From Tribonema minus (Eukaryota > Sar > Xanthophyceae > Tribonematales > Tribonemataceae), in contig JAFCMP010000357.1 in assembly GCA_017506865.1 (NCBI GenBank), positions 129,001 through 193,000 of the forward strand: DNA of 64,000 bases, written 5' to 3'. Every line of letters starts with the position of its first letter. The stretch's first letter is position 1. Both the position numbers and the translations under genes were made by a program. Positions 6,201 to 62,343 of the stretch are shown piece by piece. The notes below the pieces were generated by a model. It had not been told where the DNA came from. It ran no database searches and saw nothing but the letters and a program-made list of their open reading frames with translations.

Positions 6201-8605
6201 TGGTCTGCACGTCCATGTGAAGAGCAATCGTCTTCATGTCTTCACCAGCATGAATGTTCCTTATGCATCTCCACCTGTGATGATAGTCTGATGCATTAAA
6301 ACAGACTTGCGCAGCTGAATCAAATGCACTGAGGCTGAATGTGTGTATAGTTCGAATTATCACATGCCCGCATATGCCACATCATATGTGTTCTGAAAGA
6401 GACAGCGGAGCAGTACTGGAATTCATGGCAAGATTTCAAAGCTCACATCACTCGTCATCATACGGTAAATTCATAATGGTGCAGAAAAACCAGACCACCC
6501 AGTCTGGGATGCCAACATACATCTCTCGTCTCTCGCGCGCCTGTTGCAGATTACATGCCGCGCAGACCCTGGCAAACCTGTTTGCGCAAGGCGCCCTAGT
6601 CATCCAGCACTTCTGCGGCGGCGGCAGCTGGTCCTCCGCTCACGTGGCAGCAGCGCTGCTCGCGCTGACACAACGGACGCCGCCGCAGAGCGCTGAGCAC
6701 ATGGCAGTAGCAGCAGCGCTCAGTCATTTGCTGTGTCACACCGTCACAGCAGCCGCTGAGCAGCAGCAGCGCAGCGGCGCACGCTCTCACAGCAGAGGCG
6801 GCAGCGCTGGCGGCAGCAGGAGCGGCAATGGCGCCAGTGCAGCTGTATCAGCGGAGCTGGCGAAGCTTCACGTGGCAGGTACCATTGTAGCAGGGGTAGC
6901 AGAGGGGGTACCGCCCCCCGTTCAGGCCGCATGGCTCACCATAGCCAACGCGGTGCTGCTGCTGCCAGCGGCGGCTGCGGCAGCAAAACTCGTGCAACGC
7001 CCGGCGGTGCTGCAGTACATCGTCGCCTTAGCGCAGCAGGCGAGCTCGAGCGTGACGCGCGGCAAGGCGCTTCTGGCCGCAGCGCTCGTGTGCGACGCGT
7101 ACGGCGCTGCCGCCGCTGCAGCGCTGCTCAACCTGGGCCTGCTGCCCGTGCTGCGCGCTGCGATGGCGTCGCTGGCCCCCAGCTTCTCTCTAGCGCAGCT
7201 GTCGGAGCCGCAGAAGTACCACTACCGCTGCGCGCTAGCGCTGGCGAGCTGCCTGTGCGCACAGGCGTCGACGGCGGTGCGCGCGGTGGCACGCGGTCAG
7301 GGCGACATGGAAGCGTACGCGGCTGTTGCTGCGCGTGTGCTCGGCAGCGCGCTGCTGCGGCGGGCGGCGGTCACACCGCGCCTCATAGAGGACCTGTCCT
7401 CCTGCCTGTCTCTAGCACAAGGGGGGCGCGGGGCCACTGGGTATGAGGGGGTGCTGCGGCTTACAGGCGTGCTGGCGCGGCATGCCGAAGCGTGCCTGGC
7501 GCCGCACCTTGCGTCAGCCGTTGAGCATCTGCTGCCGTCGCTGTGCGCGCTGCTGTCTGACGCTTCTGGCAGCATGCGGGCAGCGGCTCTGGGCCAGCTC
7601 TCCGTGCTCTTGCCTGCGCTGCTGAGCATTGAAGAAGGCGGCAGCGGCGGCGGCGGCGGCGGCGGCAACAGCGCTGCGATGCGGCTGCAGGTGTCGAGCG
7701 CCCTGTGCGATAACTTGCTGCTGCACTGCCGTCACCTGTTGGCGGACAGCGCCAGCGTTCGCGTCGCGTTGCTCAAGCTGCTCCTTGCCACCGCACGCGC
7801 CTGGGATGGCTTAGGCGCAGCTCTGCAGCAGCGCCACATCCTGCCCCTTATCGCCGCCCCCTTGGCCAAGGGTGGTGCCGAGGAGACGGGTGCACATATA
7901 GCGGAGCTGCTGAGTGAACTGGCCGCACACGATGCAGTTGTAGCGCAGGAACTGACGGCACTGCACGTCGCCGAGGGCATCGCTGCCGCAATTGAGTGCT
8001 TCTCACTCTTGCGGGCGCAGCGGCCGCAGTGGCAACTTCAACTCGGCGCCACTCTGCTGAGCGGTACTGCAGCGCGCGCGCAGCCTCAGGCGCGCCGCGA
8101 CCTGGCGCCGCTGCTCACTGCCACACCGCACGTCTGCACTTCGCTGGCGCTCTTGTGCGACAGCGGTGATGCAAGCGCCGCACCCTCCGTCGCCGCCGGC
8201 GTGTCGTGGCTGAGCGCGATGCTGCGCTGCTTTGGCGGCGCCGCGGCAGCTGCGCTTGCAGGCGGCGCGCCGCCGTCGCCGCCGCCGCCGCTGCAGCGCA
8301 GCGCGTGGCCAGCGAGCGCGCCATCGTCAACGGGTGGTGCTGCTGCGCCGTGTCAGCAGCTCAGCCGCGTGCTAGTGTGCGAGTGGTGCGCAACTGGCGT
8401 CAAGGAGGAGGCCCTGCGGCTGCTGTTGCTGTTGGCTGGCTCTGACAGGGCGTGTCGTGTTGCGCTGCAGAGCCGGCCTCTGGCGACCGCTCTTAGACAA
8501 GTGGCTGATGAAGGTGGGGTGTTGTGCGCGCGCGGTGCCAACAGCCAAGAGTGCGTACGGCTGGCGCAGCGGGTGCTGGTGCGCATCAATCAAGACGCCG
8601 CATAG
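3205..8605 (+). CDS. ULK4: ULK4/RUNKEL-like (fused family) predicted pseudokinase
   Basis: Four exons fit with continuous phase: 3205-3276, 3375-4052, 4452-6061 and 6550-8605, giving about 1,471 residues (human ULK4 about 1,275; Arabidopsis RUNKEL about 1,366). The N-terminus MEKFHMYDQIAS, then VYKGR, VAIKRVDKSR, NVLKFHDWYETRNNVW and LEYCAGGSL follow the ULK4/RUNKEL kinase domain. Exon 3 supplies the end of the domain (ERPDWRALLSHQFW). The rest is Ala-rich and probably forms ARM/HEAT helices, as in the family. The VAIK lysine (residue 33) and the HCD aspartate (121) remain, but the glycine loop is ASSTHS and DFG is replaced by GFS (139-141), so catalysis is doubtful. Family members act in cilium or phragmoplast microtubule organisation. 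A long disordered Ser/Ala/Gly segment lies just after the kinase domain. TGTAA occurs about 85 bases after the stop. Confidence 0.88.
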
Positions 8606-31300: not shown

Positions 31301-34300
31301 CCGCGTAGTTCAGTTGTGCCTTGCTAGGATTACACACACTACTTAAGGGCATGCACCACTAACAAGGTTATGTGACCTTGCACCGCCAGGCACGGGGACT
31401 CTTGCCCTTTCATGATTCTCTGACCGCCGCTACGTCAGGCATATGCCACAGGCCAACAGAGCGCTGACTGTCTTGCACCACTTCAGCAAAAAACTGCTTG
31501 CAAGGCTTCCGGGAGTGTCAACTTCAAGGATGCACATCTTCACAGCAAGGGGCTCTGATCCCTGCTCTTTGATACATACACTGTCATACAGTACACAAAC
31601 TCATGCATATACATACATACCTGTAGAGCTGATCTGAGCGTTGCGCGCCTGCTGGACAGCGCCACCTTGCTGGCAGGGCACCCATGCGCCCCCGCCCTCA
31701 CCTCCCCGTTGGCCACCAGCGCCGCCACCGCCGGCAGCGCCAGCGCAGCGTCGAGTGCCTGCGGCGTGGGCTGCAGCGGCAGTGCTCTGAGGTTCCCCCT
31801 GACATCCCCGCCGTCATCGCCCCCCTCCTGGTAGGGGACAATCCCCTTGGTCTTGTCCAGGAGGCCTGCGCCTTCGAGCACCACCTTGAGCGCTTTGACC
31901 AGATGCGGGGGAGCGATGAAGCACGCCTGCGGCTCTGCTGCATCGCCGCTGAGCTCCGCGCTGACGTCCGACTGCACACGTAGGGGGGATCTGGCGCTGC
32001 GATTGGGGGGGCGGTCACTCGCTCCATGACTCACGACTCGACTCGGCTGCCCCAGCGGCGCCCCGCGGGCCGCCTTCTCCTCGTCCGCTTCAACTTCAAC
32101 TTCAACGTAGATGCGCCACGACGACGCGAACGCGGGCCCGAACATGCCCACGTGCGCCCCGCCGCCGACCGTCAGCAGCGCTCCGCTGTCATCGGGCGCC
32201 TCACACACCGCCAAGTGGGGCTGCAGCCCCGCCTCGTTGTCTCCATCCTCCAGCACCTCCAGCCATGTCCACGCCGCGCGCGTCGCGTGCGCCGCCAGCG
32301 TGCCCCCGCGCCGCTGCGCCGCCTGTCCCCCTTCCGCGAGTGCCTGCCTTGAGGGCGCACCGCCGCTGCCTCCCAGCATGAGTAGTAGTGCGGGGTGCGT
32401 GGGCAGCGCGGCGCACGCGTGCGCGAAGCGGCCCTGCGGCGCCAGCGTCGCGAACTTCCACTTTGAAGTTGTGCCGTCGAGGACGTAGACTTCCCTGGCG
32501 CCGATGGTGTCGGCCAGATCGGGGAGCCCCCCTGTCACCGCCAGCACCCACCCAGCCCCATCATCGGTGGCCGTTGATTCGATGTGAGGGTCAGGAAGGT
32601 GAAGTACGCACGCTGCGTGGTGGAACAGCGGAGCGGGCAGCGGCGCCGCCTGCCGCCACCGCAGCGCTGGCCAGCCGCAGCCGCGCTCAGCGGTCCAGAT
32701 CAGGGTCCAGCAATCTGACAGGACGCTGTTAGCATCCCTTCCGCCGGCGATCAGAGCGCTGCCGCCGTGGCCGCCTGCGATGCTCTCGGCAGAAGTTGAA
32801 CTTGAAGAATCAGGAGTTGAAGTTGGAAGTATCGTCGCCGTGTGCCCCCACCGCCCCCCTGGAAGCGCCCCCCCCCCCCGCGGCTCCACGCAATGCCACT
32901 GGCACGTGCGCAGGCAAAAGAGCCACACATCGGACAGCGCTTCGCAGGGGGATGTGCGCCCCCCGTACAGGCACAGGAACCCCCCCTCCTCCTGGACTCC
33001 AGGGGTAGGCAGGTATAGAAGGGTGTGGCCCTCGCGTGCCTGTGGCATTGCCGGGGCAGCCTGCTGTGCTGCGGGTGCAGCGTGCTGCTGCTGCTGCGGC
33101 GGCGGCGGCGCATGAACAGCGCGCCACGAGATGTGCTGCTGCAGCCGCCGCCGCTGCCGGTGCTGTTGCCGTTGACCGCCGCCGCTGCCGCTGCCATCGC
33201 CACTACTGCAACTGCTGCTGCCATCGCTACGCATCACCGCGCCTTCCAGCAAGTCACCCAGCCGCCGCACCGTGGCAGCATGGGTTCCCCCGCTGCTGCA
33301 GCGCCCGTACCCCCCAAACAGCATCAGCCGCCCTGGGGTCACGGCGGTAGGTACCGCCGACACTACCGCGTGGCCCCAGCGTTCTATCGATTCGCTGCCG
33401 TGCGCTGCAGTCAGCTTGGACCATGTTATGTTCACCCATGCAGGCTTGCTGAGCGATGATGCGTTAGACGCGGCACCTGAAGCGGCGACAGCGCCGGCGG
33501 CGGCGGTGGCGGCAGCAGATGTAGGGGCTTGGACAGCAGCAGCGGCGGCGGCGGCGGTGGTGGCAGCCGAGCTGCTGGCAAAGTGCTCTACGAGCGCCGC
33601 GTGCAGCCTGTTGGTGTGCCGCAGGTTGTCGGCAAAGCGCGCGTTGGCGACTTGAACAATGGTGACCATTGCAGCGCTCGGCATGATGACGCGCCCGCAG
33701 TGCACCAGCGGCACCTGCGCTCACAGTTCGGCACAATTAGACAGGTAGAAAAAGCAGGAGGGGTAAGGAGGGGGGGGGGGGGATGTATGGTGGGTGCGAA
33801 TGTATGCTTGCTGTATTTGCTTGCTCTTGCACCTGTGGCACATGCGCACTTGAAAGAATAGTGTGCAAGTCAGCACTTGGCCATCTGCCAGTATTGTCAG
33901 CGCTTTGTGCACATTTAGGGTTAGGGTTGGCCTTGTGGGGATGTTCACATGTGGTGAACGCGCAAGTGCGCAATGCTAGATGCATGTTGCGCTGCACGAA
34001 AACCATCACTAAAACATTTTGTCAAAATCACACAACAGCGCAAGATGGACTGTACATCCCAAGGCAGTCAAGGGCCAATGCTCCCAACATTTCTAGTCAA
34101 GTAGCAGCGGAGAGTTCCCAGGGAGCAGTAGCAGTGGCTGTACCTCTTCTTCGCGTATGACTCAAGTGCCCGTGATATAAAGCGCTTTCTTAAAAAAACA
34201 TTTGAGGACTTCAAATGAGCGGCAGAGGCAGAACTGGCTGACTGAATTTGAGCTGAGCTTGCGTGGTACATGCATGTAGTCCTCATGATGAGCTGGAGTA

Positions 34301-46352: not shown

Positions 46353-47550
46353 GTAGATTCCTTACAGCTAGATGCCAATCATCTGAGCTTTTTCGCGCCC
46401 TGAGCGAGAATTAATAAAAAGTACACAAGCCATACATACGCCCGAGCTCATACACAACACACACTACGGTAGCAGGCAGCGAGCATCACATGTCAACTGG
46501 AAGTTGAAGTCTGCTGTACCCCCTCTGAAAACGACACAGGCGATAGCGATGCAAATCGTGACAATGACATGAGCCAGGTGTTGGCAGCACTTTCGCAACT
46601 GTGCGACTGTGCAGTGGTGGCAAAGCGAAGGACGGGTATCATGAGCGCAGAAGCACAGCAAACCACGAGTACACTAGAAACCCATTCATCAAAGGGATGT
46701 GCGCCTCAGACATCAAATATATGCGCACGGACCAGCGCAGTGACTTTTGCGTATCATTGATTCAATCCCTACAAAACACTGTTTTAAAAAAGTATGCGTC
46801 ATTAACGAGCCAAACCGCTGACACAGCGTGCGCCTGCCACAAGGTAAGAAAGTTACTTCAGCAACTTCAAGTGATGACGGCTGTTAGCATCGCACTCGAT
46901 GACAGCATGGCCGACGTCAGTGCTTCTGGTCACAGCTTGGTGCTGCCAACATTGATCCTACGGCAACCAAACAACTTGCATAGTTCTCACTGAATGCAGA
47001 CGCTGCAGAAGTGAAAACTTCATGTGCATTTGCAAATCCTTGATAGGTTCAACTTGAAGTGGCTTGCATGAGTTGCACTATGACGCAGTCTCAGCCCGCA
47101 ACCCTGGCCCAATGCATGCGACACGTCAGTGGCTGTTCCCCGATGCAGGTGGACGTGCCAGTGTCACTCACCTAACCCTAACCCTAACCCTAACCCTAAG
47201 CAAGCGAGTAAGAGCCTCGGCCTCCCCCACCCTAGCCATGCTCAGGATCACTTTAATACGGGCTCTGCGTCAGTTTCATGTGCTGCAACTTGCGTACTTT
47301 TCTGAAGTACCTCTATCGCGTTCACACACCCTCGCAGTCGCCATTCCTAACTTCAACCCTACCCCTACCGCTGCCCCTATCTCACGACCTCAGCCCCCGA
47401 ACCTCCCACGCACCCATAAAGGCAATTCTTTTTAGAGATTGCTGAAGCAGCTCAGTGAAGCTACAGTAGTTGTTTTGTACTGTTCACATTGCGCTTCTCG
47501 TAGGAATTGAACTCGCGTCCAAGGCCGTACCAGACCCACAAGCGCGCAGC
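46353..47550. other. intergenic region, no gene recognised
   Basis: Lower GC than exons. It includes one telomere-like block (listed separately) and degenerate CTAACTTCAACCCTACCCCTA sequence at about 47348. No protein-like frame was found. Confidence 0.35.
47171..47200 (+). repeat. interstitial telomere-like repeat (CCCTAA)
   Basis: Four and a half CCTAAC units in perfect tandem, far from any chromosome end visible here. Confidence 0.9.
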
Positions 47551-50500
47551 TTAACACGACTCAGCCGTCAGACGCACCTCCACGATCGTGGGCTCCACGA
47601 TGAACGTGCCAAACTTCTCACTATCCGTGACCACCTTGCAGCCGGCGTGGCGGTACGTCCCCAGGAACTGCGGCAGGCCCGCAATGAGGTCGCCGTCGTT
47701 GACGACGCGGAAGTGCTGCCGCACGCGTGCGTCCAGACGGCGCGCAAACGCTGCGTTGCCGACGCGCGGCGCGCCGAAAGTGTACAGGCTCAGCTCGTCG
47801 GGGAGCGCAAAGTTTGAGGCGATGTCGTACGCTGCAAGGCACGCCATGGCGCCGCCGAGGGAGTGCCCTGCGAGTTGTCAAAGTTGAAGTTGGCGGCAGC
47901 GATGATGTGTATATGGCTCTCCATGCAGCAAGGCAGGTTGAAGTTGGCGGCAGCGATGATGCAGCTCTGTGCCGCAAGGTAACAGCAATGGAGATGTCGT
48001 GCATACACGCGCAACTTCGGAGTGTGAGGCGGAATGTCCCGCCAACCTTGAAGTTGGCACACATCTGCACAGCTTTGACCGCGGGGAGACGCTTGAGACC
48101 TGCAGTTGAGCACTGTTCATGGTGCGCACCATGATGCTGCATGCAGCAATGCTGTACACGCAGCAGCCTGAGCCTGAGCACTGCCCATGACCTTCAAGTA
48201 CTGCCCATGCAACAGCTGAAACTTCCTGTGACCATGTAATTATGCTAATATATCGACACACTTAGCTTGCATCAACTGAAAGAAACCCCGACAGGCGCAC
48301 CTGTGACGTAAAGCGGCAGGTATTCGCGCTGCAGCTCCATGGCCACCGCTGCCATTGTGTTCTCTCGCACACTGCATCGTGGAGGTTCAGAGACATGCAG
48401 CAGCAGCATCAAGTCTTCATACAGCATTGACACTGAAGTTGACAGGCCTGGAAGCGAGTTGTTGGTGAATTGCTGGGGGATGATCCGTTGCCACGCTTTC
48501 CGTTGTGACAAAGGTGCATGACCGGGACAGTCATCGCGGCACCGCTGTGAAGTCAACACCATTCACAAGTGGTTCACAAGTACTTCAAGCGTGTACTGGG
48601 GCGGCATCTGCATGCGTACCGTTGACGTGTGGACTTCACGCACCAGTATGTGCAGCATGCACTTCAACAAACCATCTGCTCATACTACAGATAATACGTA
48701 TGAGATACGACCGCAAGCGCAGGCATTGAGCATGCGTGTATGCACACTATCAAAGTGACATACCGGCAGCGTGGCGCAGCAAATCGACACAATGACCACC
48801 ACCAGAGAGGAACAGCCACCGCACCTGAGATAACTCTCCAGGAAGCCCGAGTGCACACGCGGCAGCGCCTGCCTGGCCAGCGGTATCCGGTGCACCAGGC
48901 CCCTCAGGGCGCTCTGTATGCGCCAACCCATCCCCTTCACCCCCTCGCTAAAAAAAAGTTCTACCAGGTCCACGTCCCCCTCCCCCCCCGCCGCCTGTCC
49001 CCCTGCCTGCCCCCCTAGTGCCGCCGCCACCCCCCCGTCGTCTGATTGGACGGAGGATGATCGCGATTGGCGCCGACCGGAGGCAGACCAGCTTGCGCTT
49101 TCGTGCTCGTACTCGTTCTCAGAATCATACCAGGATGGCCCCGCTGTTTGCTGCTGCTGCTGCTGTTGCTGCTGCTGGTGATGGTAGCCGTGGCTGCTGC
49201 CGCTGCTGTTGCTGTGCGCCTGATACTGCTGCTGCTGCTGCAGCTGCTGTGGGTGGGGGCGGTCAGCAGGCACGGGAATGGCGATGCGACCGCGGCCGTT
49301 GGGGCGCAGCTGCGGCAGCGCTGCCTGAGCAATGCGGATGTCTGTGGCCACGTTCTTGAGGTGAGCGGTGCCGCGGAATGCCAGGACCTGGTAGGGTAGG
49401 ATGGTATCATGAGAAGCATCGAGTCAGCGGCAGTGCAATTGACGGAATGTTGCAGTTGTTGAAGGCACACGAGTTTCACCTGCCTGGTCTGTAACCAGGT
49501 TGAGGATGCAGCCTCGAGCACCCAAAAACGGCAGAGTACGAAGTGCCTGCCAGTGGCAGGGGTCGACAGGGAAACACAATCAGAGCCAAGTGGCGTCAGA
49601 GCAACATACAGCACTACTATGAGCAAGCTGTCTGGGTGGCAGTGCCAAGTAGCCAGATTGATGCATCATTCTGATTCATTCACGCTGCTGCTGAAACTGC
49701 ACTGCCCAGCACGATCATGGTAATTGGCCAAAACCAAGCGTGTAGCTATGCTCACCAGCCTGTCCTTGCCCCTGCAGAGCACTGCCTTGGTCTCAGTGGC
49801 CTCGTTGTAGACGTAGGCCACCAGAGTAAGCCCCAGGTACCCAAGGTCCTGCCTTGCTGGGGCAATCTGTTGACAAAAAAGAGACATCACACGCACAGGC
49901 GTGGTCGAGTCGTTCATCCAAGCTGCTGATAAGCATCGGCACAGCTTTGGGGTACAGTTCATGATCAATAGCAGTATGTGCTTTGAAGCGTGACAGGTGT
50001 ACATGCCTTGCTCAAGCAGTAGCCCAATGACAACCTTTGCAACGAAGTAGGTAACTGGCTTGCTTCTGCTATACATTGAGCATTGACAAACTGCAACAAC
50101 ACACTACGTCAATGAGCAGATGCCGTGAGGGTACCTATTACAGCAGGAAGCTTTGCGGCTAGGCCTGTGCACCTTGAAGTTGCGCTTGAAGTCATGGGAC
50201 AGATCTCGGCTTCCTTCAAAGAGTGAAGATACCGCTTGCGAGGATGCGCCGTTCACCATGATATCCTTCAAACGGTCATTTGCTACTGTGCCACATCGCG
50301 CTTGCGCGTTATACATTGCCAGATCATCGGAACCACTGGCAACATGGCTGGTGCATGACTGTAACCCTTAACCTTTGCAATTTCATCGTGAAGTACAGTA
50401 GTCCACACTTATACATGATCAAGTGCCAATAGCACACTGAGGATTGATCATCACCAGAATGTACCATCAGTGGCGATGTCTGGTACCCTGCTGACACTGA

Positions 50501-53500
50501 TGAAATTGTTCACCATAATTCATGCAGGTATGCTGCCTGGCTGCACATCACTCACCGCCACCGCACTCACAGAGCAGGTGGCACGTCAACTAAGTGCTCG
50601 ACCTCACTGATCACAAGCATACTCAAGCTGAAGCGCCAACCCTGGCAAAGTTGAAGTAAGAACAGCCCAAATAAGGCACCATATACATATACAGCAGCGC
50701 TCTGCAGCGGTCGCCTCACCATGTCATCCGGGGTGTAGTTGCTGGGGTCATAGTACGCCTGCGAGGAAGAGGCAGAGGGCGATGCAGCGGTTGAGCACGC
50801 AGCAGCTAACCCTGACCCTAACCCTAACCCTAACCCTAACCCTAACCCTAAGCAGCAGCGGTGGCAGCACCAAGAGCGCCTGTGGTCGCGAGGGGGGAGA
50901 TGTGACAACCGACCTGTAACCCTAACCCTAACCCTAACCCTGACCCTAACTCTAACCCTAACACTAACCCTAACCCGTGTTTTGCTGCCGGACGGCAGCT
51001 CAGGCGGGGAGCGCCTTCTGCACCCGGCACAAGTGCGAAGTGCAAGGGTGCAGCAGGCGCACATACAACAGCAACATGTTCTGCAGGCTGTACCGCACAG
51101 ACAACGACTAGGCTAGGGGGGGGCGAGGTGCAGCACGGATATATATATGCATTTCTTTTCCAAATTGTACAACTGAAGAGTGTGATGTTTGGCGTACATG
51201 CTAGCCAATTGCAGTGTTCAGAACGGGATGCCGTGCACATGCTAGCCAACTGCAATGTTGATGCCGTTGTTGCGCATGCATGCAAACAGCCTCAAAAGAA
51301 GACTTTGCAATCCCGCAAATTGTTCTGAATGGCCTGCCACGCCGCCTCACCTGCCAAGCCGCTTCGCAGAGAAAGCACGCCGTCTCGAGGCAGAAGAGCG
51401 GCTGCCGCAGCTCCTTGGAGTCCCTGTAGCGGCGCTTGACCTCCTTAGGGGGAAGGTCGCGCTCCAGGGTGACGTAGAGGCGGTCTTGCTTGCGCGATAT
51501 GGAGTGCACTGGAGGCAAGAACAGGTAAACCTGCAGCAGAACAAACAATGAGGGGCACAGTTTACTTCAGTGATTGCACCATCTGCTGTACGTCAACAAT
51601 GATCAGCGCACAGGGGGGGAAAAAAGTCAGAGGCGCCTTGTAGCTGGTTATACGCCGCGTCCGATGCCGGCGGTGTAAACAGTGGGGGGAATGAGAGCTG
51701 CCGCACATGAAGTTGACCCTTGCGGAAGTGAACTTGAATTGTATGCGCCCCTCATCTGCTTGCTCTGGTTCAATTCAATGTCATTTAAAATTGATCGTGT
51801 TTGCAGCTGATTCAACCCCTGGTACTTCCCTTTTGTTGTTAAGTTGAGAGCTCTGGTCTTTGACGCCGAGCAGACTTTGCAGAGTCAGGCAACAGAAGCG
51901 TTTCCTTCCGTCTGGTACATATCATGGGTACATAGTTTGCGGATTGTCAAGCTGTACTTACTTGACATACCGGCATGCACTCACACCGGTAGGAATGCAG
52001 AAGCTGAGTTGCACGCACCTCACCAAAATATACACATGCTTGTACCACTGAAGGGCTGTGCATTCTTTCCACCACCTTGCACATGCTGACTTCCAGCTTC
52101 TTTACTGCCTGCGCACATGTACTGAAGGTAGATGCCGACAACATATGCCAAGCTCAGCCAGCGGATCAATGCATACGCTACATGCAGACAAAGGCTGTAC
52201 ATGCCCGCATGCACCCACGGTTTCCATACAGAATATGATCCTCACCGTCAGGCATCACTGCAACAGTCTACTGGACTCCACGCAGACAGAAGCATCGATG
52301 CCGAGCATCTCCGGATGTTCTCGCACCTTGCACGCTAGAGCACTGCCAACGCCAGCTTCTAGGAGCCCATGAAGGCAGCAAGGTAAGTACTGCCAATGCC
52401 AGTATATAGGAGCCATGTAAACGCAGCAAGGTATGTATGCAAACAACAAACCTTTGAGCCAACCTACCCCTATATGATGCAGCGCTCGCCTGCGTGTAAA
52501 CAATGCAGCTGACAAACAGCAGCGCGCCGAGCAGCAGGCGCAGCAGGGTATGTATACCGTCCAAAATTCATACCTACATCCCCTTGTCAATAAAATCAGC
52601 AGCGCTCACCTGCGTGCACACGACGCAGCTGACGAACAGCAGCGCGCCGAGCGGCAGTCGGAAGCCACGCGCCCAGCTGCTGATGAGCAGCGCCTCCAGT
52701 CCGAGGCCGCCGCGCCACGTTGTGGGCAGCAGCTTGAGCATGGTGTGGTGGGACGCATAGCTGAGCATTGATGCCAGTTGAGCCGCCAGGCCCGCGCACA
52801 GGAGCATGATCAGCAGCATCACCTGGTTTGCGGCGGGGGGGGTGGCTCGGGGTTAACTGTGTGCGAACAAAGTGGGCATACATGCTGTATAGTCGAGAAT
52901 TACGGTAGCGGTCGTCGTGGCTGGGAAAAGTGGTGCTGTGGCAGCTTGCGCATTGGACGTTGCGCACTGCAACAGTGCAACACGTTACCACCGCCACCAC
53001 CATGTAAGTACACATTGTAACCCACTGATGCTTGTCCAGCAAGGGCTGCTTTAATGAATAAAGCCAGGCCACCGAGCCACTGATGATGACCCAGACCCAA
53101 TAGCACTGCGCAATGATGCCCTGATAGCTGATGCCTTGTCACACTTTGCACGACATCGCATGCATGCGTCGTCTGCAGTATTTGACCGCACTGCGCAAGC
53201 ACTGCGAAAAGTACTGCATTACAGTCAGCCAAGAGCCTTCACAGCAGCCAAGACGCAACACGATAGCCTTACAGCGCGTTTCGCAGAACGGCTGATGCAG
53301 CTTCACCCAAGGGCGAAAGCTTGATATGAATCGCAACTTGACCCATGCATGTACATATGTTGAACGTGAACTTGAAGTTCCATTTGCGGCGCGTGCGCGC
53401 ACCTGCCCCAGCATGATCCTGTACGTGAGCTGCTGGCGCCGGTTGACCATGAACGGCTGCCCCTTCAGCACGCGCGCCGTCCTAAACGCCACCCTCAGAA

Positions 53501-56500
53501 ACCACACCACCCACCCGCAGGCCAGCACCCCCGCAGCGATGCTCAGCCCCTCATAGGCCCCCCTTGGGGCCCCCTGCAGGGTACCCCACGGCCAGTTCCC
53601 CGGGGTCGCCTCTGGGTGGCGTAAGAAGCAGAGGCAGATGCTGACGGCCATGCCCAGAAGTGCGTATAGCACCTTCCAGGAGATGAAGTCTAGGAAGAAC
53701 TCGCTTTGGCTGTGGTGGTGGGGGACTCCCTGCGGTGGGGGGTGGGGGTTACGGGGTGCTTTGAGACGCATGAAGACATTGCGCACATGACGGCAGGCAG
53801 CCGGTTGTACGCCAGCATCGACTCTCATGAGCATGAATGTCATACCTACAGTATGTGTTGCTGCAGCTTGTCAGTATCGCCTCGACCATGAAGCACATGA
53901 CTCATGACTCACGACTGGCGAGTCATGACCTGCGCCGACCCCACGATGCAGCAGGTGGCCAAGTGAATGCTGAGCACTATATTCATCAACTCATGTGTCA
54001 TCACTAAATGCTAGGGTCATTGATTGATGCATTGCATCAGTCGTAATGCATAATGCACACACCTCAGCACTAAGTCTCAAGGGTGCCAGCAACATGAAAC
54101 TCTTCACTCTATTGTTGCAGTCTGAATTGTTGCCAGGCTTGAACATACAGCAACAAGGTGGGTTTGATGTTCCTTGCCAATATTGCTATGCCCATGCAAG
54201 CATGGCCCACTCCCAGTGCTGACAGGAAACGAACTCCTACTACTGCTGCTGCCCCGTCGTTGGCACCTATCAATGATGATCACCAGACCAAGAGGACGCA
54301 CAAGTTGAGTCACAGCACCACTGTTGCAGATGGCAGAGTGCACAAGCTAATCTGCACTTGCATGACGGTCCTCAACTTCAATTGCAAATGTCAGATACAG
54401 AAGCCGCACATTCAGGGGTCAGCGTAAGGGTAAGGTAAGGGCAAGATGTGGCACACTTGAAGTTGACACGTGCCCAATTGAAGCTGACCTGCGCTAAAGC
54501 TGCACAGGGGTAGCCCCCCCCCTCCGTCCCAGCCCACCCACCCCCCGCCGCCTTGTTCTTAGGCTTATTGGTAAACCGCTGCCCATCCATGAGTATCACC
54601 CAGCACAACCACAGGAGCTGCTGGCCCAGTCCCTGTACGAGTTCTGAGGCCACCACCAGGCGCAGGTTGAGCACTGTGTCGGAGGGGAGCGCTGCCACCT
54701 CTAGCACCGCCAGCAACTGCCATGCGCACAACAACAACAGGACCACCATGTGAGACAGGCTGCGCTGTGAGAGCACTTGCATGGACAGGAATTTGGAGGT
54801 GTGGGCCACAGAGTGGACCAGGATCATGGCTACATGAAGCAGGATGTCACAAAAGGCGGAAGTGTGACACAAAGCTGACAAATGCTGCATCCCCTCGCCA
54901 AGCATCATACATGAGCAGGCAAGCCTGGTGACAATTGCATCCGCATGAGTTATGGAAACGAATCAAAGATCGTAGAGCACTGGTTGACAAAGGATGGTTA
55001 GCCGCAAGTGCCTTCCACCAATAACCGTGGTCGCCGCTGCTGCAGTCATTGGCCACGAGTCAAACAGTGCCATCACAACCACAGGTCAAAAGACTTCTGT
55101 GTGCAAGCTTTTTAGCGTTCGAGGGCAGTTGGCAGTGTATGTTGACTGTAGTGCATGCAGCTCAGGCTGCCAGAAGTATGCGTGTGCTCAAGTATGCTCA
55201 AGTGTGTCCAGATAAGGCCGCCTGTTGCAATGGCATGCCTCAATGTGGCCAGACTGACACTGCATTGTGGCTTCTACTCATGCACTAATAGTAGCGCTGC
55301 ACCTGAAGTGCTACACTCCCATGGTCAACAACACGCAGCGCACTTTGCAACGTATATTCTGGCATGTTGCACCAAGGCGTTGCCCTGTCATTTTTTGTTA
55401 AATGATTATCCAGCACGGACTCTACACAGTGGTTAGGACGCACCGGCCATGGTTCATTCACAGCTCAGCAGGCCTGCACACAGCACAGCGTACAACATGG
55501 CCAGCAACCCCTGAAGGCCATCTACATGTGCGCCACTTACGGGGTTTTGCCAGCAGATGAGCGCAAAGAGCATGACACTCAGCCAGAGGCCCTCAGCGTC
55601 CTGAGGCCGGTGCCCTTTGTGGCGCCGCCGGCACGCCGCGCGCCACCACACCATGGTGATGCTCAGAGAGATGGCCAGCAGCACCAGCCGCAGCACGGCC
55701 AGCAGCTGCAGAGGCAAGAGGCGATGACACGAGGAGCATATGACGTCAGGCAGCTGTGAGTGAGCTGTGAAATGTGCAGCTTGGCAGTTTACGGGATGTA
55801 CATTGTAGGTTGGCAGTTATGGGATGTAACTGTAACTATCACCAGACACCCTGCTACCGGAGCCGTGCGTCCAAGGAGCACAACAGATAAACGTGACATG
55901 CAGGCAGCTGAGCTCATGCATACATGGAAGCCGCAGCTGTCAGCCATGCACATGAGAAGTCAAGTGTGACATTTAACTTCAAGTGTCTGGTGTGTGACCA
56001 GTGCTCCCTGTGCCAAGTGCTCATTGCATCTACGTGAGCAGAATGACCATTGCTCCGGGGGCTAGCAACAGTTGCGCATAGGTAAAGAGGCAAGCAGGCG
56101 CATCAATTCATTTATGAATGCAATTCGTGTATGGCTGATTACACTCCTCGACAAGACACTGTGCTGTGAGTGTGGCTTGAGCTTTCTGGCGCTACATGCG
56201 TGCCATCACGAGTAGTCAGTGCTGGCGTGCATACAACATGTGTTCATCTTCTTGAAGTTGTGAGCAGGCTGCAAATAAGTTGAGCGGGCAGAACCCGGCA
56301 TTGATATCATGGTGTAGTCAAGCATACTCTGAATGGCAACATCAACTCGCCAGCATGTCTATACACATCAATCTGCATACGGCTGTGCGGTTAGGGCCAT
56401 ACAGGCTCAAAACACCTGTTGCAAGGTCAAGTGCCACATGGATTAGCGCCTATCCAGGGCTGCGTCCTCACCTTGGCATAAGCTCTGCTTTCAGATGTAA

Positions 56501-59500
56501 GCTCAAAGGCCGCACTGGCCACAAGCGCTTCAGCACCCTGGCCCCGTATGCCACTGGCATCAGCAGCCACTGCAAGGGTGGCTGTGATTTTAAATGCGTC
56601 GTAGCGCCTGCATGGTATGTGTGAGTGGGGCAAGGCAGCAGCAAAAATAGAGCATCCAAAGTGTTAGTACATGGGGTGGCGCAAGGCTTTGCCGCCCCAA
56701 GGTATGAAAATTAGGCTTTCAATATAACTTGACTTCAAGGTAATTAGCAAGTCTCTGTCTGTAGGTACCTTGCATTCGCAGGTTGCCATCTCATACTTCA
56801 TGAGAGTTTGGAATTACACGACAATGATAAGTGGCATCTGTCCACCGCAACACCTCCGTCAAGTACCAAAACGCAATGTTGAACGGTTTTAAGGGTGACC
56901 AGTTGCACAAATTTTGCCTGCAGTGAATGACGCCAGTGCAGCACCACTACGTCCAGTTGGACAGATTGTATATACATTCACTGAAAAACGTGATGATAAA
57001 CGAGCTAGTCACACAAGTACTTTTACCAGAGCAAGGACCAGCCCGCAACATGACATGAGTGGCACAGCTCACCCGAGCAATCCAGGCGAGTCGAAGATGA
57101 TATGTAGCAGCGTTGCTGCGTCGCAGTGTTGTTCACTTGCAGTTGCCAAGCCGTTGGGGTCCGTCGTTGACATGGCGTTGCACTCAACAACCTGCAGCAG
57201 TTGAGCATCATCATTGACTGCATAAAAAACGCTGCTTCGATCAGGCTCAGGTTTCAGTGTAATCATGTCATGAACCTGAGGCAAATGCGCTGTGAGATGA
57301 CAGCCAGGTGCGTCGTGCTGGCATCAAACCCGGGACGAGGAAAGACAACGAGGCGAGCATGACTGTGAAACATGATATTTTGGAGTTATCTTGGTGGAGC
57401 ACATGGCATTTACAAGCTCATTGCCGTTTGCACACTTGGCGGTTACGGCACTTACCCTTTCTGGCACACCGACCACAATACATTCACTTCTGGCAGCATA
57501 CGACTGGCGTCGGTCTTGTGTTGCAGTGGGTCATCACACCAGGCGCGAGGAAAGACAAAGAGGAGGGTATGACTGTGAAACATGATACTTCAAAGTCATG
57601 TTGTTGGAGCATAGGGCAGTTGCATGCTCATTTGCATGCGTGGCGGCTACGGCTGTTATGCGTGCCGGTACACAGACCACAATACATTCACCGCCAGCAG
57701 CACACGACAGGCGTCGGTCTTCTGTTGCATTGGTCACCTTGGTGTCTGCCTCTGTCGATGTGGAGCAACAGGCTGGTGAGGAGCTGCAACATATGTCACC
57801 AGAGCGTCTGCCAGGTTCTGTTCCTGACCCTGACCTAGCGCTGGCGCTGATGATTCCGCTCAGCGCAACCCAATGATGATGATAATCAGCGCAGTGCCTG
57901 CAGTCATCTTAATAGGATGCTATATCACCAGGGGGCAACCCTACCCTACTTCTTCGGTACTCTGGTTGACAGACATGCCAGAACCCAGGAGTGCTATCGC
58001 GCCTCCTGACAGGAGGCATGCTTGTCAGCGACAATGGATGCTGCAAGCCTTCCAACAAGCCGCTACTGAACGCGTGATGTTGATGCGCCCCATGAGCTGC
58101 TATTGCGGCTGAATAGTCAATTCAATGTACATGCTGCTCTCTTGGTGTTTGGGTTAGTATTAGAGCTGGGCTCATGGCACACTTGACAGATGGTGCCTGA
58201 CCCTGCAAGCTCTCACGGTGGAGCCTGTGCCGAAGCAATTTGCATGAAAAGTCTTCGGGGTACTCAACATGTAATGGATCACTCTTCTTTGTAGTTAAGT
58301 GTGCAACATAGGAGCACACCACTCCAACTTACCTGCCAGGACTGCTCCGCGGCACGAGAATACACCGTTCGCCACCCCCCCTCCCCCTTTGGCACTGCAA
58401 CGTCCACATCTGCCCCCACCATGTACGCCACAGCGCCGCTGCCCCCTATCGCCTCGCCATCGCCCCCCTGGGGCTCCATCGCAAACTGCGTGACGCCCTC
58501 CGCAGGCTGGAACAGGGCCTCAAGTTTGAAGTACGAGTTGTCGTTGGGGGCGTCCGGAATGAGCCACGTGCAGGTGCTTGCTGAGCACTGAGCAGCGCCT
58601 GGCGGGAAAAACCTGGCACTTACGCCAAAGTCGCTGGCGTCGAGCCATATCGCCAGCGCCAGGCACACGTACGGCAGCATGAATATGACGTAGGTGGAGA
58701 CAGTGCTCAGCGCCTCCAGCCGAATATCCGCAGCCTCGACGAGCTTGACGCCGTGCTTGAAGAGGACCGTGTTGCCGCCCTGGTCGGCGCTGGTCTGGTG
58801 TGGCAAGTGCAGGCACAGATGTGGTAGTTGTAAAGAAGTCAGGCGCGCAGTGTGGTCTGTGGGTGACAGCTGAGGAGCAGACGGTGTACGCGTTTGCAGG
58901 CCCAGATCTGATCATTTGCTAGCAAGTATCGACGACGGGTAGGCCAGACAAGTCATGAGCTTTACAACACATCAAGCAGCGGGTTATCACATAGATAATC
59001 AGGACCTTCATGTCAGTGTAAAGATGAATGACAATGTCTTACTACCAACATCACTCCAATACAGGCACAGGCAGCACAGCTCACAGGCCATCAAAGCACC
59101 TGCTGCTCACCCCTCACATTGTCAGCAGCAGCCCCAGCAGCGGCACTGCTCCCGTATCCGCGGCGCTGGCGCTCGCTCGCAGCAGTCAGAGGCCACATCT
59201 CTCGCCGCTCCTCCGTTCCAGATTGTGCAGCAGCGCGCCTGCGGTTGGCCTCAAAAGGGTTCACGGGGCTGCGCTCCAGCGCGCTTGGTCGACTTTCCGC
59301 GCGTGGCGGCGAGTCGGATAGCAGTGGGCTGGCCTTCACAACCGCGGCACTGAGTTGCGCTGGCGGGAAAAGCAGGGGGGACCGGCGCCTGCCAGACTGC
59401 GAGTTGGTGCTGGTGGCACCCCCTCTCTGCGGCAACGCATGAGTTGGCGGTGCCTGGAAGGGGTTGCTGCCTGCGACGGCTGCGCTGGTTTCAGATGCTC

Positions 59501-59783
59501 TTGCGCGGGGCGGCCTCAGGGAGCGTGAATGTGTCGCTGGCGCTGCGGTAGCGATGGTGTGTCTCTGCTGTGCGGCGCTCGTGTAGTAAGCAGGCTGTTG
59601 CTCAGGGCTCCTCCCGGGAAAAGGCTCTAGGGGCGTGCCAGCTTCAGCTTCCGGGTACGTGACACTGGCTCGGCTGAAAACACCTCTGTTCCTCGAATAG
59701 CGAGGGTTGGAAGGCCCATCCGTACCCTCTGGGCCCAAATAGTTTCCATAGCCACTGCCAGCATGTCTTCTGCTGCCTGACAT
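47551..59783 (-). CDS. Wntless/GOST-like seven-helix protein fused to a class 3 lipase
   Basis: Sixteen exons fit one continuous frame of about 1,394 residues: 59783-59100, 58794-58333, 57275-57073, 56607-56472, 55705-55541, 54884-54489, 53729-53403, 53120-52989, 52822-52610, 51530-51351, 50758-50720, 50358-50173, 49866-49756, 49387-48825, 48371-48301, 47867-47551. Exon 1 encodes a disordered Pro/Ser/Arg head (NPFQAPP, NPFEAN). Exon 2 has a first hydrophobic helix (YVIFMLPYVCLALAIWL), then a lumenal-type domain to exon 4 (FELTSESRAYAK). Exons 5-9 hold about seven membrane helices, including LICWQNP, reminiscent of Wntless (FDNP). Exons 10-16 are a class 3 lipase: ETACFLCEAAWQAYYDP, VLAFRGTAHLKN, VHSGFLESYL, GHSLGGAMACLAAYD, TFGAPRVGN, VVNDGDLIAGLP, YRHAG. 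The Ser-Asp-His triad is present. Possibly a membrane-bound acylglycerol or phospholipid lipase. Exon 1 and 8 borders are the least sure. Confidence 0.72.
47883..47985. repeat. two-copy tandem repeat, period 54 bp, with GAAGTT motif
   Basis: GTTGAAGTTGGCGGCAGCGA occurs at 47883 and 47937, each followed by TGATG. It lies in the intron before the last lipase exon, only about 16 bases upstream of the acceptor. Confidence 0.8.
50807..50850 (+). repeat. interstitial telomeric repeat (CCCTAA)n
   Basis: About seven tandem CCCTAA units with one CCCTGA variant, in the intron between lipase exons 10 and 11, 49 bases from exon 11. Confidence 0.95.
50916..50977 (+). repeat. second interstitial telomeric repeat block in the same intron
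   Basis: About ten CCCTAA units with several single-base variants (CCCTGA, CTCTAA, CACTAA), 65 bases from the first block and in the same orientation. Confidence 0.95.
52330..52440. repeat. two-copy tandem repeat, period about 55 bp
   Basis: ACTGCCAACGCCAGCTTCTA...GGCAGCAAGGTAAGTA is followed directly by a diverged copy ACTGCCAATGCCAGTATATA...CGCAGCAAGGTATGTA. Intronic. Confidence 0.7.
52490..52555. repeat. intronic partial copy of the edge of 7TM exon 9
   Basis: The + strand CTGCGTG...ATGCAGCTGAC AAACAGCAGCGCGCCGAGC is a close copy of 52611-52655, the last bases of exon 9. On the minus strand it reads LLGALLFVSCIVYTQ against LPLGALLFVSCVVCTQ in the exon. Confidence 0.75.
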
Positions 59784-60227: not shown

Positions 60228-62343
60228 ATGGCGCCCGCCGCTGCTGCCAAGCCCACCGGGGAGAGCCGCTGGTACCCCGCTGATGACATCAAGGCGCCTC
60301 GCAAGTCGAAGGCCAAGAGGAGCGTGCACAAGCCCACCAAGCTGCGCTCTTCCATCACGCCTGGCACCGTCTGCGTGCTGCTGAGCGGCAGGTTCAGGGG
60401 CAAGCGTGTGGTGTTCCTGAAGCAGATGGCGTCTGGCACTCTTCTGGTCACTGGTGAGTGCCCATAGTCTGGATCTACAGGTACCGCCATTAACTGTCTG
60501 CGCTATGCAGTTTTTTTGTCTGTGCATCTTTGAGTTTTTGCTAACTTTGAGCGGCAGCTGAATTCTGAGCCCGATGACGCAAAAACTCTGCGTGAGGCGC
60601 CGCGAGCGAGGTCCGTGCTAAAGGTGTTCTGCGTCTGCCGACAGTCCAATATGGGCCTTGCACGGCGGCAGGCGCAGGGCAGTGGAAGCTCGGGCTGAGC
60701 GACCACAGCCGAAGATCGCAAAATACGATTATGAGAACTGAGGGCTCATTGAATGTAGTGACCAGATCCTGCCATAACTGGTCTGCGACACGTGCGCGTA
60801 AGCTGCTGCCTGCTTGTGTGGTAATTCTCGCTCCAAGTGCTTGCAGTGCTCTCCTCGGCGAGCCGCTGTGGCTATGCAGCCGAGGCACTGGCCGTGATGC
60901 ACACCGCACACCATCAACCTCCACCATGCGCCTCTACGCATCAGCGCCTTGATTGCACACACTCAACCTCCTATGTGCGCGGGTACCGGTTCTGTTGCAT
61001 TGTTTCTTCTTGTGGTTTCCACTCTCCCCTTGTTATCAGGCCCCTACAAGGTCAACGGCGTGCCCCTGCGCCGCGTGAACCAGGCCTACGTCATCGCCAC
61101 CTCCACCAAGCTGGACGTGAGCAAGGTGGACGTGTCCGCCATCGACGACGCCTACTTTGCACGCGCGCCTGAGGCAAAGAAGACCGCCGAGGACGCCTTC
61201 TTCGCACAGGCTTCCAAGGTGACCCTTGTAGCTATATCTCATTGTTTCAGAAAGCGAAGCACTAGTCTGCAGTGTCAGTAGAGGGCTGTTGCAATGATGT
61301 CATGCATACATGCAACGGATAGACGCGCAAGCCGGCCTGGTGCTGAGACTATGGAAGTGTGCGCTTGGTTGCTTGCGTTGCAAATGCGTTGTGGGTGGCA
61401 GGCTTTGTAGCTTATGGCGCCAGTTTCATCAGCTCCTTTGCACAAGGAAGGCGTATCTCAAGGCATTTTCAGCCTGTTTGAATAGCATGGTGTCAGCCAT
61501 CAGCCATGGTACGCCTACGCACACATACATGTATATTTATGCCCATTACAGGAGCAGATGCTGCACCGGCCCCGGTACCACCCACTCGAGGGTGCTCTGC
61601 GGGAGTCGTTAGTGGGCGCCGCGCGCCTTTGACATTTGTTGCCTCGTGTGTTGCCTCTCTGTCTGCTCCGCTGTGGGTACATCAGGAGTCTGTGGTCTCT
61701 GACCAGAAGAAGAAGGACCAGGACGTTGTTGACGCCTCCATCCTGGCTGGTCTCTCCAAGGTACGTATGTATACACGCATGAATTCATGAATTGACATGA
61801 ATTCAATTGACAGCCCGCGCGCATCCCTTTGAGGTTTGTCGTGACCTTTCTGTAGGGTCGTGTTCATATGTATGCATAGCACTTCCAAGGTGCTGGCCGT
61901 GTGTGGCTCCTGTCTTGACCATGCCTCGCTGACCAATCAAAGAGTGCCTGCGGGAACGCATTTGAGCTGAACTTGATGCCTGGCGAGGACAAAATACTGT
62001 GGCCCAGCCCCGCTTTTGATGCGCTTGAAGTAAGTGTAGCCATATGGCCGGCAGCTCACCAACGAGTTGCTTCTTATGGGGCTGGGTTGTGGAGGCAGCA
62101 CCACTTGCGCTCTCACTGCTGCGTATTTTGCCACAATCATCACACCTGTTTGAATAATGTGCCTGACAATCGCGTCACCACTTGTTCTAGTTGCGTGTCC
62201 AGTCACAAAAACCTTTTGACCACCTGTACTGACCGTCACCATTGTCATGTGTTTTTGCTTCACAGGACAAGCTGCTCAAGGCATACCTCAACGCTAAGTT
62301 CTCTCTGACCAAGAAGGACCGCCCCCACGAGATGGTCTTCTAG
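60228..62343 (+). CDS. RPL6: 60S ribosomal protein eL6
   Basis: Four exons (60228-60453, 61040-61218, 61686-61760, 62266-62343) join in phase and give 185 residues, near the fungal and plant length. Exon 1 has a short Ala-rich head, then [39 protein letters not shown] and [19 protein letters not shown]. Exon 2 continues [26 protein letters not shown]. Exon 3 is [20 protein letters not shown]. Exon 4 ends [21 protein letters not shown]. These are the eL6 landmarks ([43 protein letters not shown]). The start lies in an AACCATGG context. The protein sits in the large ribosomal subunit. Confidence 0.97.

Follow-up and report, generated by a model that had tools for sequence, protein, structure and literature searches.

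A candidate algal membrane lipase predicted to join a Wntless-like seven-helix core to a class 3 lipase domain

Gene structure of the locus

The 64,000-nucleotide window analyzed here (positions 129,001 to 193,000 of contig JAFCMP010000357.1) is part of a 158-Mb assembly of 554 contigs and carries on its minus strand the gene that is the subject of this report. Its model begins with an ATG at 59783, ends with a stop at 47551 of the window and comprises 14 exons, which encode 1221 residues without an internal stop: a low-complexity head, then membrane helices, then a class 3 lipase with an intact catalytic triad. On balance, we consider it moderately probable that this is one gene for a polytopic membrane lipase, composed of a predicted Wntless-like seven-transmembrane (7TM) core and a predicted cytosolic class 3 lipase. 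The exons are as follows.

Exon 1, 59118..59783, minus strand: start codon and 222-residue low-complexity head, with NPF motifs at residues 107 and 175
Exon 2, 58333..58779, minus strand: helix 1 of the membrane part (residues ~248-266), then the beginning of the lumenal region
Exon 3, 57073..57275, minus strand: lumenal region; weak third-position G+C
Exon 4, 56472..56607, minus strand: end of the lumenal region; weak third-position G+C
Exon 5, 55541..55705, minus strand: helices 2 and 3; QNP motif at the exon end
Exon 6, 54489..54716, minus strand: weak helix 4 and a cytosolic loop; start uncertain
Exon 7, 53403..53729, minus strand: helices 5 and 6 and a basic loop
Exon 8, 52610..52822, minus strand: helix 7 and first part of helix 8
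Exon 9, 51351..51530, minus strand: end of helix 8 (VYLFLPP), basic linker and putative start of the lipase half; without an in-frame ATG
Exon 10, 50720..50758, minus strand: AYYDPSNYTPDDM; closes with the first in-frame ATG of exons 9-14
Exon 11, 49756..49866, minus strand: probable strand region at the N-terminus of the lipase, with a weak second alignment of 2.9 bits
Exon 12, 48825..49387, minus strand: FRGT strand, glutamine-/glycine-rich insert at the lid position, then VHSGFLESYL
Exon 13, 48301..48371, minus strand: helix and strand up to the nucleophile elbow (LYVTG)
Exon 14, 47551..47867, minus strand: HSLGG elbow and remaining catalytic domain to the stop; C-terminus provisional

Each of the 13 introns runs from GT to CAG, and every junction keeps phase; since splice sites were picked so as to keep phase, phase is no independent proof of single junctions. 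The original prediction had counted fifteen phase-keeping junctions; a phase-consistent exon series is indeed present, for which 13 junctions between 14 exons suffice. The rejoining of motifs that it had described, ETACFLCEAAWQ to AYYDPSNY, is present in the DNA at the junction of exons 9 and 10. A possible donor (GAG/GTGCGT) lies at 47577 within the last exon, so exon 14 may run on and the C-terminus is provisional.

At 52490-52540, intron 8 contains a partial exon duplicate: 51 bases, of which 44 agree with the end of exon 8, with GC after them in place of the GT donor. G+C in the coding sequence is 0.656 at first, 0.507 at second and 0.746 (74.6%) at third codon positions, and 0.515 (51.5%) in the introns overall; third-position values are weakest in exons 3 (0.51) and 4 (0.47). 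The 51-base repeat in intron 8 and the weak codon bias of exons 3 and 4 could point to a gene that has decayed or is not expressed, or to a model assembled from chance open frames. However, 14 of 14 exons are open and in phase, the triad is intact and the third-position G+C is that of the whole coding sequence given above, and we regard this explanation as highly improbable.

The lipase domain

In a Pfam scan, the C-terminal part of the protein matched Lipase_3 (PF01764) at 98.3 bits against a cut-off of 22 (E 4.7e-28), with the match starting at residue 1080 and covering positions 31-137 of the 140 in the profile. Thirty-four distinct solved sequences matched the lipase at E up to 0.001. The best of these was 5tgl, which we take to be a fungal enzyme whose catalytic residues are those paired in the alignment. 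In this alignment, Ser1119 (in the GHSLGG elbow), Asp1176 (in NDGDLIAGLP) and His1190 (in YRHAGC) are paired with residues of 5tgl; their codons are as follows.

Ser1119 codon, 47860..47862, minus strand: nucleophile, in GHSLGG; by alignment to a solved lipase
Asp1176 codon, 47689..47691, minus strand: in NDGDLIAGLP; by alignment to a solved lipase
His1190 codon, 47647..47649, minus strand: in YRHAGC; by alignment to a solved lipase

The triad stands in the order Ser-Asp-His with a GxSxG motif. The claim of a class 3 lipase with an intact triad is thus borne out by the profile score and the aligned triad, and the prediction of a class 3 serine lipase with complete triad residues in the C-terminal part is supported. 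Fungal triacylglycerol lipases (5tgl/1tgl and others) share the class 3 sequence, the GHSLGG elbow and the aligned Asp and His; 5tgl/1tgl and related lipases are presumably secreted single-domain enzymes of fungi, unlike the membrane-bound form predicted here. The 174 residues from FRGT (residue 909) to VHSGF (1083) include runs of glutamine and of glycine, and we take this stretch to correspond in position to the lid of fungal lipases. The assignment of exons 9 to early 12 to the lipase is based on their phase and on a 2.9-bit second alignment around FRGT.

Membrane topology and head

Hydropathy places one helix near residues 248-266, followed by a lumenal region of ~220 residues and seven helices from about 485 to 800, with segment limits drawn by hand from the hydropathy peaks. 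Helix 1 and six of the seven helices 2-8 are well supported, the six peaking at 1.9 or more. The N-terminal two thirds thereby follow the order of Wntless: cytosolic head, one helix, lumenal domain of ~220 residues, seven helices and cytosolic C-terminus. The predicted cytosolic segments contain 6, 4, 6 and 11 Lys+Arg, and the short loops on the lumenal side 1, 2 and 2; the head has 31 Lys+Arg versus 19 Asp+Glu, and the lumenal region 12 versus 28. This charge pattern places the lipase in the cytosol, and the predicted orientation, with the lipase on the cytosolic side, is supported.

The head contains two NPF motifs, and two such motifs arose in 3 of 20,000 shuffles of the head. NPF motifs bind endocytic EH-domain proteins, and the two motifs suggest that the head could bind proteins of this kind.

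Animal diacylglycerol lipases (DAGL alpha/beta) presumably offer a parallel in layout, with a class 3 lipase behind a polytopic membrane module and a cytosolic catalytic domain. We take them to lack a large lumenal domain and to carry four N-terminal helices immediately ahead of the catalytic domain. The protein described here does not have this four-helix layout; about eight helices with a lumenal gap of ~220 residues give it the Wntless-type one, and its insert presumably lies between FRGT and VHSGF and not at the DAGL loop.

The probable Wntless-like core

The profile WLS-like_TM (PF06664) has a curated cut-off of 28.3 bits, intended for whole proteins, and its match to the gene depends on where exon 6 starts. 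Twelve in-frame AG sites are possible for this start, of which 54884, 54764, 54716 and 54698 were scored. From 54716, the core alone scored 32.4 bits (E 7.7e-8), above the cut-off; from 54698, both the core (36.3 bits, E 4.8e-9) and the whole protein (30.4 bits, E 3.2e-7) scored above it. With either start, PF06664 was the only 7TM family in Pfam that the whole protein matched. The acceptor at 54716 (GGCAG/TTG) agrees with the CAG acceptors of the other 12 introns, and 54698 scores higher in Pfam. We picked 54716 after comparing the protein by eye with the other Wntless-like gene of the genome, L009: the first model had ~56 extra residues after QNP, which this start removes. Regardless of the exon 6 start, the end of exon 4 and exon 5 alone had PF06664 as their best family (E 0.0021, below the cut-off). 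None of six shuffles that kept the hydrophobic pattern matched PF06664.

Because the match depends on the exon 6 start, support for the Wntless assignment is conditional on one splice site. The original prediction had drawn the Wntless label from topology and the QNP motif; the label now has a profile match with 54716 or 54698 and none with 54884 or 54764. Taken together, the membrane core is likely Wntless-like, as judged from its sequence.

L009 (G000:C514:572520-573299) was the only PF06664 match listed by the genome search; it is one open frame of 493 residues that scores 146.6 bits and has no lipase, and the nearest lipase match on contig C514 is about 133 kb away from it. Direct homology of the core to L009 was tried as proof and set aside, with Smith-Waterman and global scores below the shuffle mean and nothing useful from hhalign. 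Two further loci, L025 and L026, gave exon-sized matches to GOST_TM (PF06814) of 27.3 and 26.5 bits against a cut-off of 25.2, and other GOST proteins may therefore exist in this alga.

One gene or two

Helix 8 has a hydropathy peak (residues 782-800) that straddles the exon 8/9 junction at residue 796, and exon 9 continues in frame through the basic linker. The frame of exon 9 has no ATG back to the preceding stop. Third-position G+C is coding-like in exons 9 (0.83) and 10 (0.85). Because the first in-frame ATG of exons 9-14 closes exon 10, an independent lipase gene could start at this codon or in an unseen exon. From 60000 to 46000, the coding strand contains nine copies of the pentamer TGTAA, seven of them in introns (1, 2, 3, 4, 7 and 10) and none in intron 8. 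TGTAA is the usual polyadenylation signal of green algae, and a non-green host would make it a doubtful guide.

A search for paralogues with the first model gave 30 matches, 13 on the contig of the window (C357) and 17 elsewhere, with 36 of 49 candidates scored. All 17 matches outside C357 begin at residue 1134 or later, inside the lipase domain. Within 17,001 bases of contig C510 and 9,901 of contig C9, the best match outside the lipase had an E-value of 0.17. Viral and prokaryotic contig collections, each searched with one 207-residue query, yielded no relatives, which says little for a eukaryotic gene. The pairing of a Wntless-like domain with a lipase was not found among the matches listed in the open-access PMC literature, and domain databases (InterPro) and eukaryote proteomes may record it. 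PMC12419801 contains both words, in passages unrelated to the pairing, and the passages of PMC13334175 that were retrieved do not mention Wntless.

It is possible that two adjacent genes, one for a Wntless-like membrane protein and one for a class 3 lipase, have been merged in error at some point from exon 8 to exon 11. At 1079 bases, intron 8 exceeds the other 12 introns in length, the ATG that closes exon 10 could start the lipase domain, and neither Pfam profile (PF06664 or Lipase_3) requires exons 9, 10 or 11. In addition, L009 and the nearest lipases (on C510 and C9) lie apart from each other. On the other hand, exon 9 has coding-like third positions, lacks an upstream in-frame ATG and prolongs the hydrophobic run of helix 8, and exon 8 ends in a standard donor. 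The lack of TGTAA from intron 8 is a weak point, with about one expected by chance. We consider two joined genes quite unlikely and favor a single continuous fused gene. The earlier claim of one continuous gene thus keeps its open, in-phase frame and its helix across the exon 8/9 junction, and stands as the favored reading on the basis of a gene model.

Evidence against a Wntless-like fusion

Several results weigh against the proposed fusion of a Wntless-like core with a lipase. With exon 6 starting at 54884 (the first model, of 1277 residues), neither the whole protein nor the core alone matched a 7TM family in Pfam at E up to 10, and with 54764 the core had no PF06664 match. From 54716, the whole protein scored 26.7 bits (E 4.1e-6) and the span from the head to helix 8 scored 28.2 bits, both below the cut-off of 28.3, and the choice of this site was itself guided by L009. 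Pfam scans of exon 6 alone, of exons 7-9 and of exons 6-9 joined gave no matches. Without the VYLFLPP of exon 9 the core scored 32.3 instead of 32.4 bits, and Pfam thus provides no link between exon 9 and the membrane domain; exons 9 to early 12 scanned alone matched no Pfam family. Helix 4 has a hydropathy peak of 1.24, like uncalled segments of the head, lumenal region and lipase (1.17-1.26). The lumenal region has a fitting length; it matched no Pfam family and the GOLD fold was not recognized in it. The core scored 36 against L009 versus a shuffle mean of 38.6, with 321 of 500 shuffles reaching its score. Finally, no relative with both halves was found in this genome or in the viral and prokaryotic collections. 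The membrane core of the first model matched no solved structure by sequence.

The gene might be single and its membrane part an algal polytopic lipase anchor unrelated to Wntless, with the PF06664 score reflecting convergence of membrane sequences. Such anchors have a precedent in PMC7910983, which lists 14 lipases of Chlorella vulgaris; six of them have predicted helices (4, 6, 7, 7, 7 and 9), and PF01764 is the only domain listed for these six. The PF06664 match is near the cut-off, dependent on a splice site and unseen in the pairwise comparison with L009. Against convergence stand E-values of 4.1e-6 to 4.8e-9 in whole-library scans with 54716 or 54698, as well as the failure of all six pattern-preserving shuffles to match. 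One helix, a long lumenal region and seven helices make up the Wntless layout, whereas the longest gap after helix 1 in the Chlorella proteins described is about 90 residues (Lip_3928; PMC7910983). We therefore regard an unrelated anchor as unlikely, if less so than two joined genes.

The same Chlorella proteins bear on the statement that known membrane class 3 lipases have four helices, which is not supported: Lip_4551, Lip_2999, Lip_3076, Lip_4232 and Lip_4575 have six to nine predicted helices before Lipase_3 (PMC7910983). A many-helix lipase is not new in algae. These five are set apart from the present protein by their description, which lists no Wntless-like domain and shows no long lumenal gap (PMC7910983). 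A single gene with a Wntless-like core remains our preferred explanation; the whole-protein score from 54716, below the cut-off, and the ATG at the end of exon 10 lower our confidence in it.

Relation to known systems and possible function

Passages of PMC9711517 describe Wntless as a carrier of lipidated cargo, and propose that GOST proteins hold membrane-associated cargo by means of a lumenal domain together with a 7TM cavity that opens into the membrane; they report no definitive evidence of G-protein signaling by GOST proteins. The predicted protein would share helix 1, a lumenal domain, the 7TM core and, conditional on the exon 6 start, PF06664 with the GOST relatives Wntless (WLS/GPR177) and TMEM181 (PMC9711517). 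Unlike these, it has a C-terminal catalytic lipase, a long disordered head and a divergent core, and no GOLD domain was recognized in it.

As to substrate, cargo, regulation and location (for the last, the original prediction suggested the Golgi or plasma membrane), we can only infer how such a protein might work. The 7TM core would bind a lipid or lipid-bearing cargo inside the membrane, as Wntless does with acylated Wnt. The cytosolic lipase would cleave acyl esters of the facing leaflet, be it of diacylglycerol, monoacylglycerol or polar glycerolipids, and would do so at the sites of sorting or engagement of the receptor module. The long insert at the lid position, rich in glutamine and glycine, would be regulatory, and the NPF motifs of the head would serve as endocytic handles.

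A more far-reaching and tentative reading, which we find conceivable rather than probable, is that of a receptor-coupled lipase, in which a Wntless/GOST-type 7TM cargo receptor would directly control its own cytosolic lipase. Cargo binding or sorting would then release a lipid messenger or reshape the membrane locally. An analogous arrangement is found in the G-protein-coupled receptor (GPCR)-bigrams, such as the GPCR-PIPK of oomycetes and choanoflagellates, in which a 7TM domain is combined with a cytosolic enzyme that in some cases acts on lipids (PMC6033456, PMC12716839). By its gene model and charge pattern, the predicted protein would fit this layout, in which a single chain carries the 7TM domain at its N-terminus and a cytosolic enzyme at its C-terminus. 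The types named in the relevant passages of PMC6033456 and PMC12716839 are PIPK, INPP, AC, PDE, TKL and an N-terminal aspartic protease, with no lipase among them, and the word 'lipase' (as a word start) is absent from both main texts. If the coupling is true, the gene would represent a lipase type of GPCR-bigram beyond those named in these passages, and lipase would join the enzymes fused to 7TM domains. A natural enzyme fusion tells what a Wntless/GOST-type module can couple to and on which side, here a predicted cytosolic lipase, and if real it could provide a testable case of GOST modules steering lipid turnover.

Host and genomic context

The original prediction assumed a chlorophyte setting, which is probably wrong. 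The genome has 92 chlorophyll-binding matches and, when searched exon by exon, no match to the RuBisCO small subunit. A fragment of the RuBisCO large subunit (L030, G000:C334:714136-714324) matched nine solved chains at 115-118 bits versus 65.5 bits for the 1gk8 chain; we take the nine to be form ID enzymes of diatoms and red algae, and 1gk8 to be that of Chlamydomonas. This rbcL piece is incomplete and might derive from transferred DNA; L031 is another large-subunit match in the genome. Of two antenna proteins, one most resembles fucoxanthin proteins and the other was uninformative. Together, the red-type rbcL, the missing small-subunit match and the fucoxanthin-like antenna protein make an alga with a red-derived plastid a more likely host than a chlorophyte.

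Telomere-like interstitial TTAGGG/CCCTAA arrays occur in the window at 47176-47199, 50816-50851, 50920-50937 and 33915-33926, two of them within intron 9 of the lipase gene. Downstream of this gene, a possible next gene on the minus strand (46352-45040) reads from MSYDSLKVRND; its first exon has no Pfam match. Farther away, a 772-codon open frame on the plus strand (6287-8602) has an ULK4-like HEAT repeat match (27.6 bits, cut-off 27). Upstream, in head-to-head orientation, lies a plus-strand Ribosomal_L6e gene that starts at 60228; its start codon and that of the lipase gene are 445 bases apart, and the two genes possibly share a promoter region.

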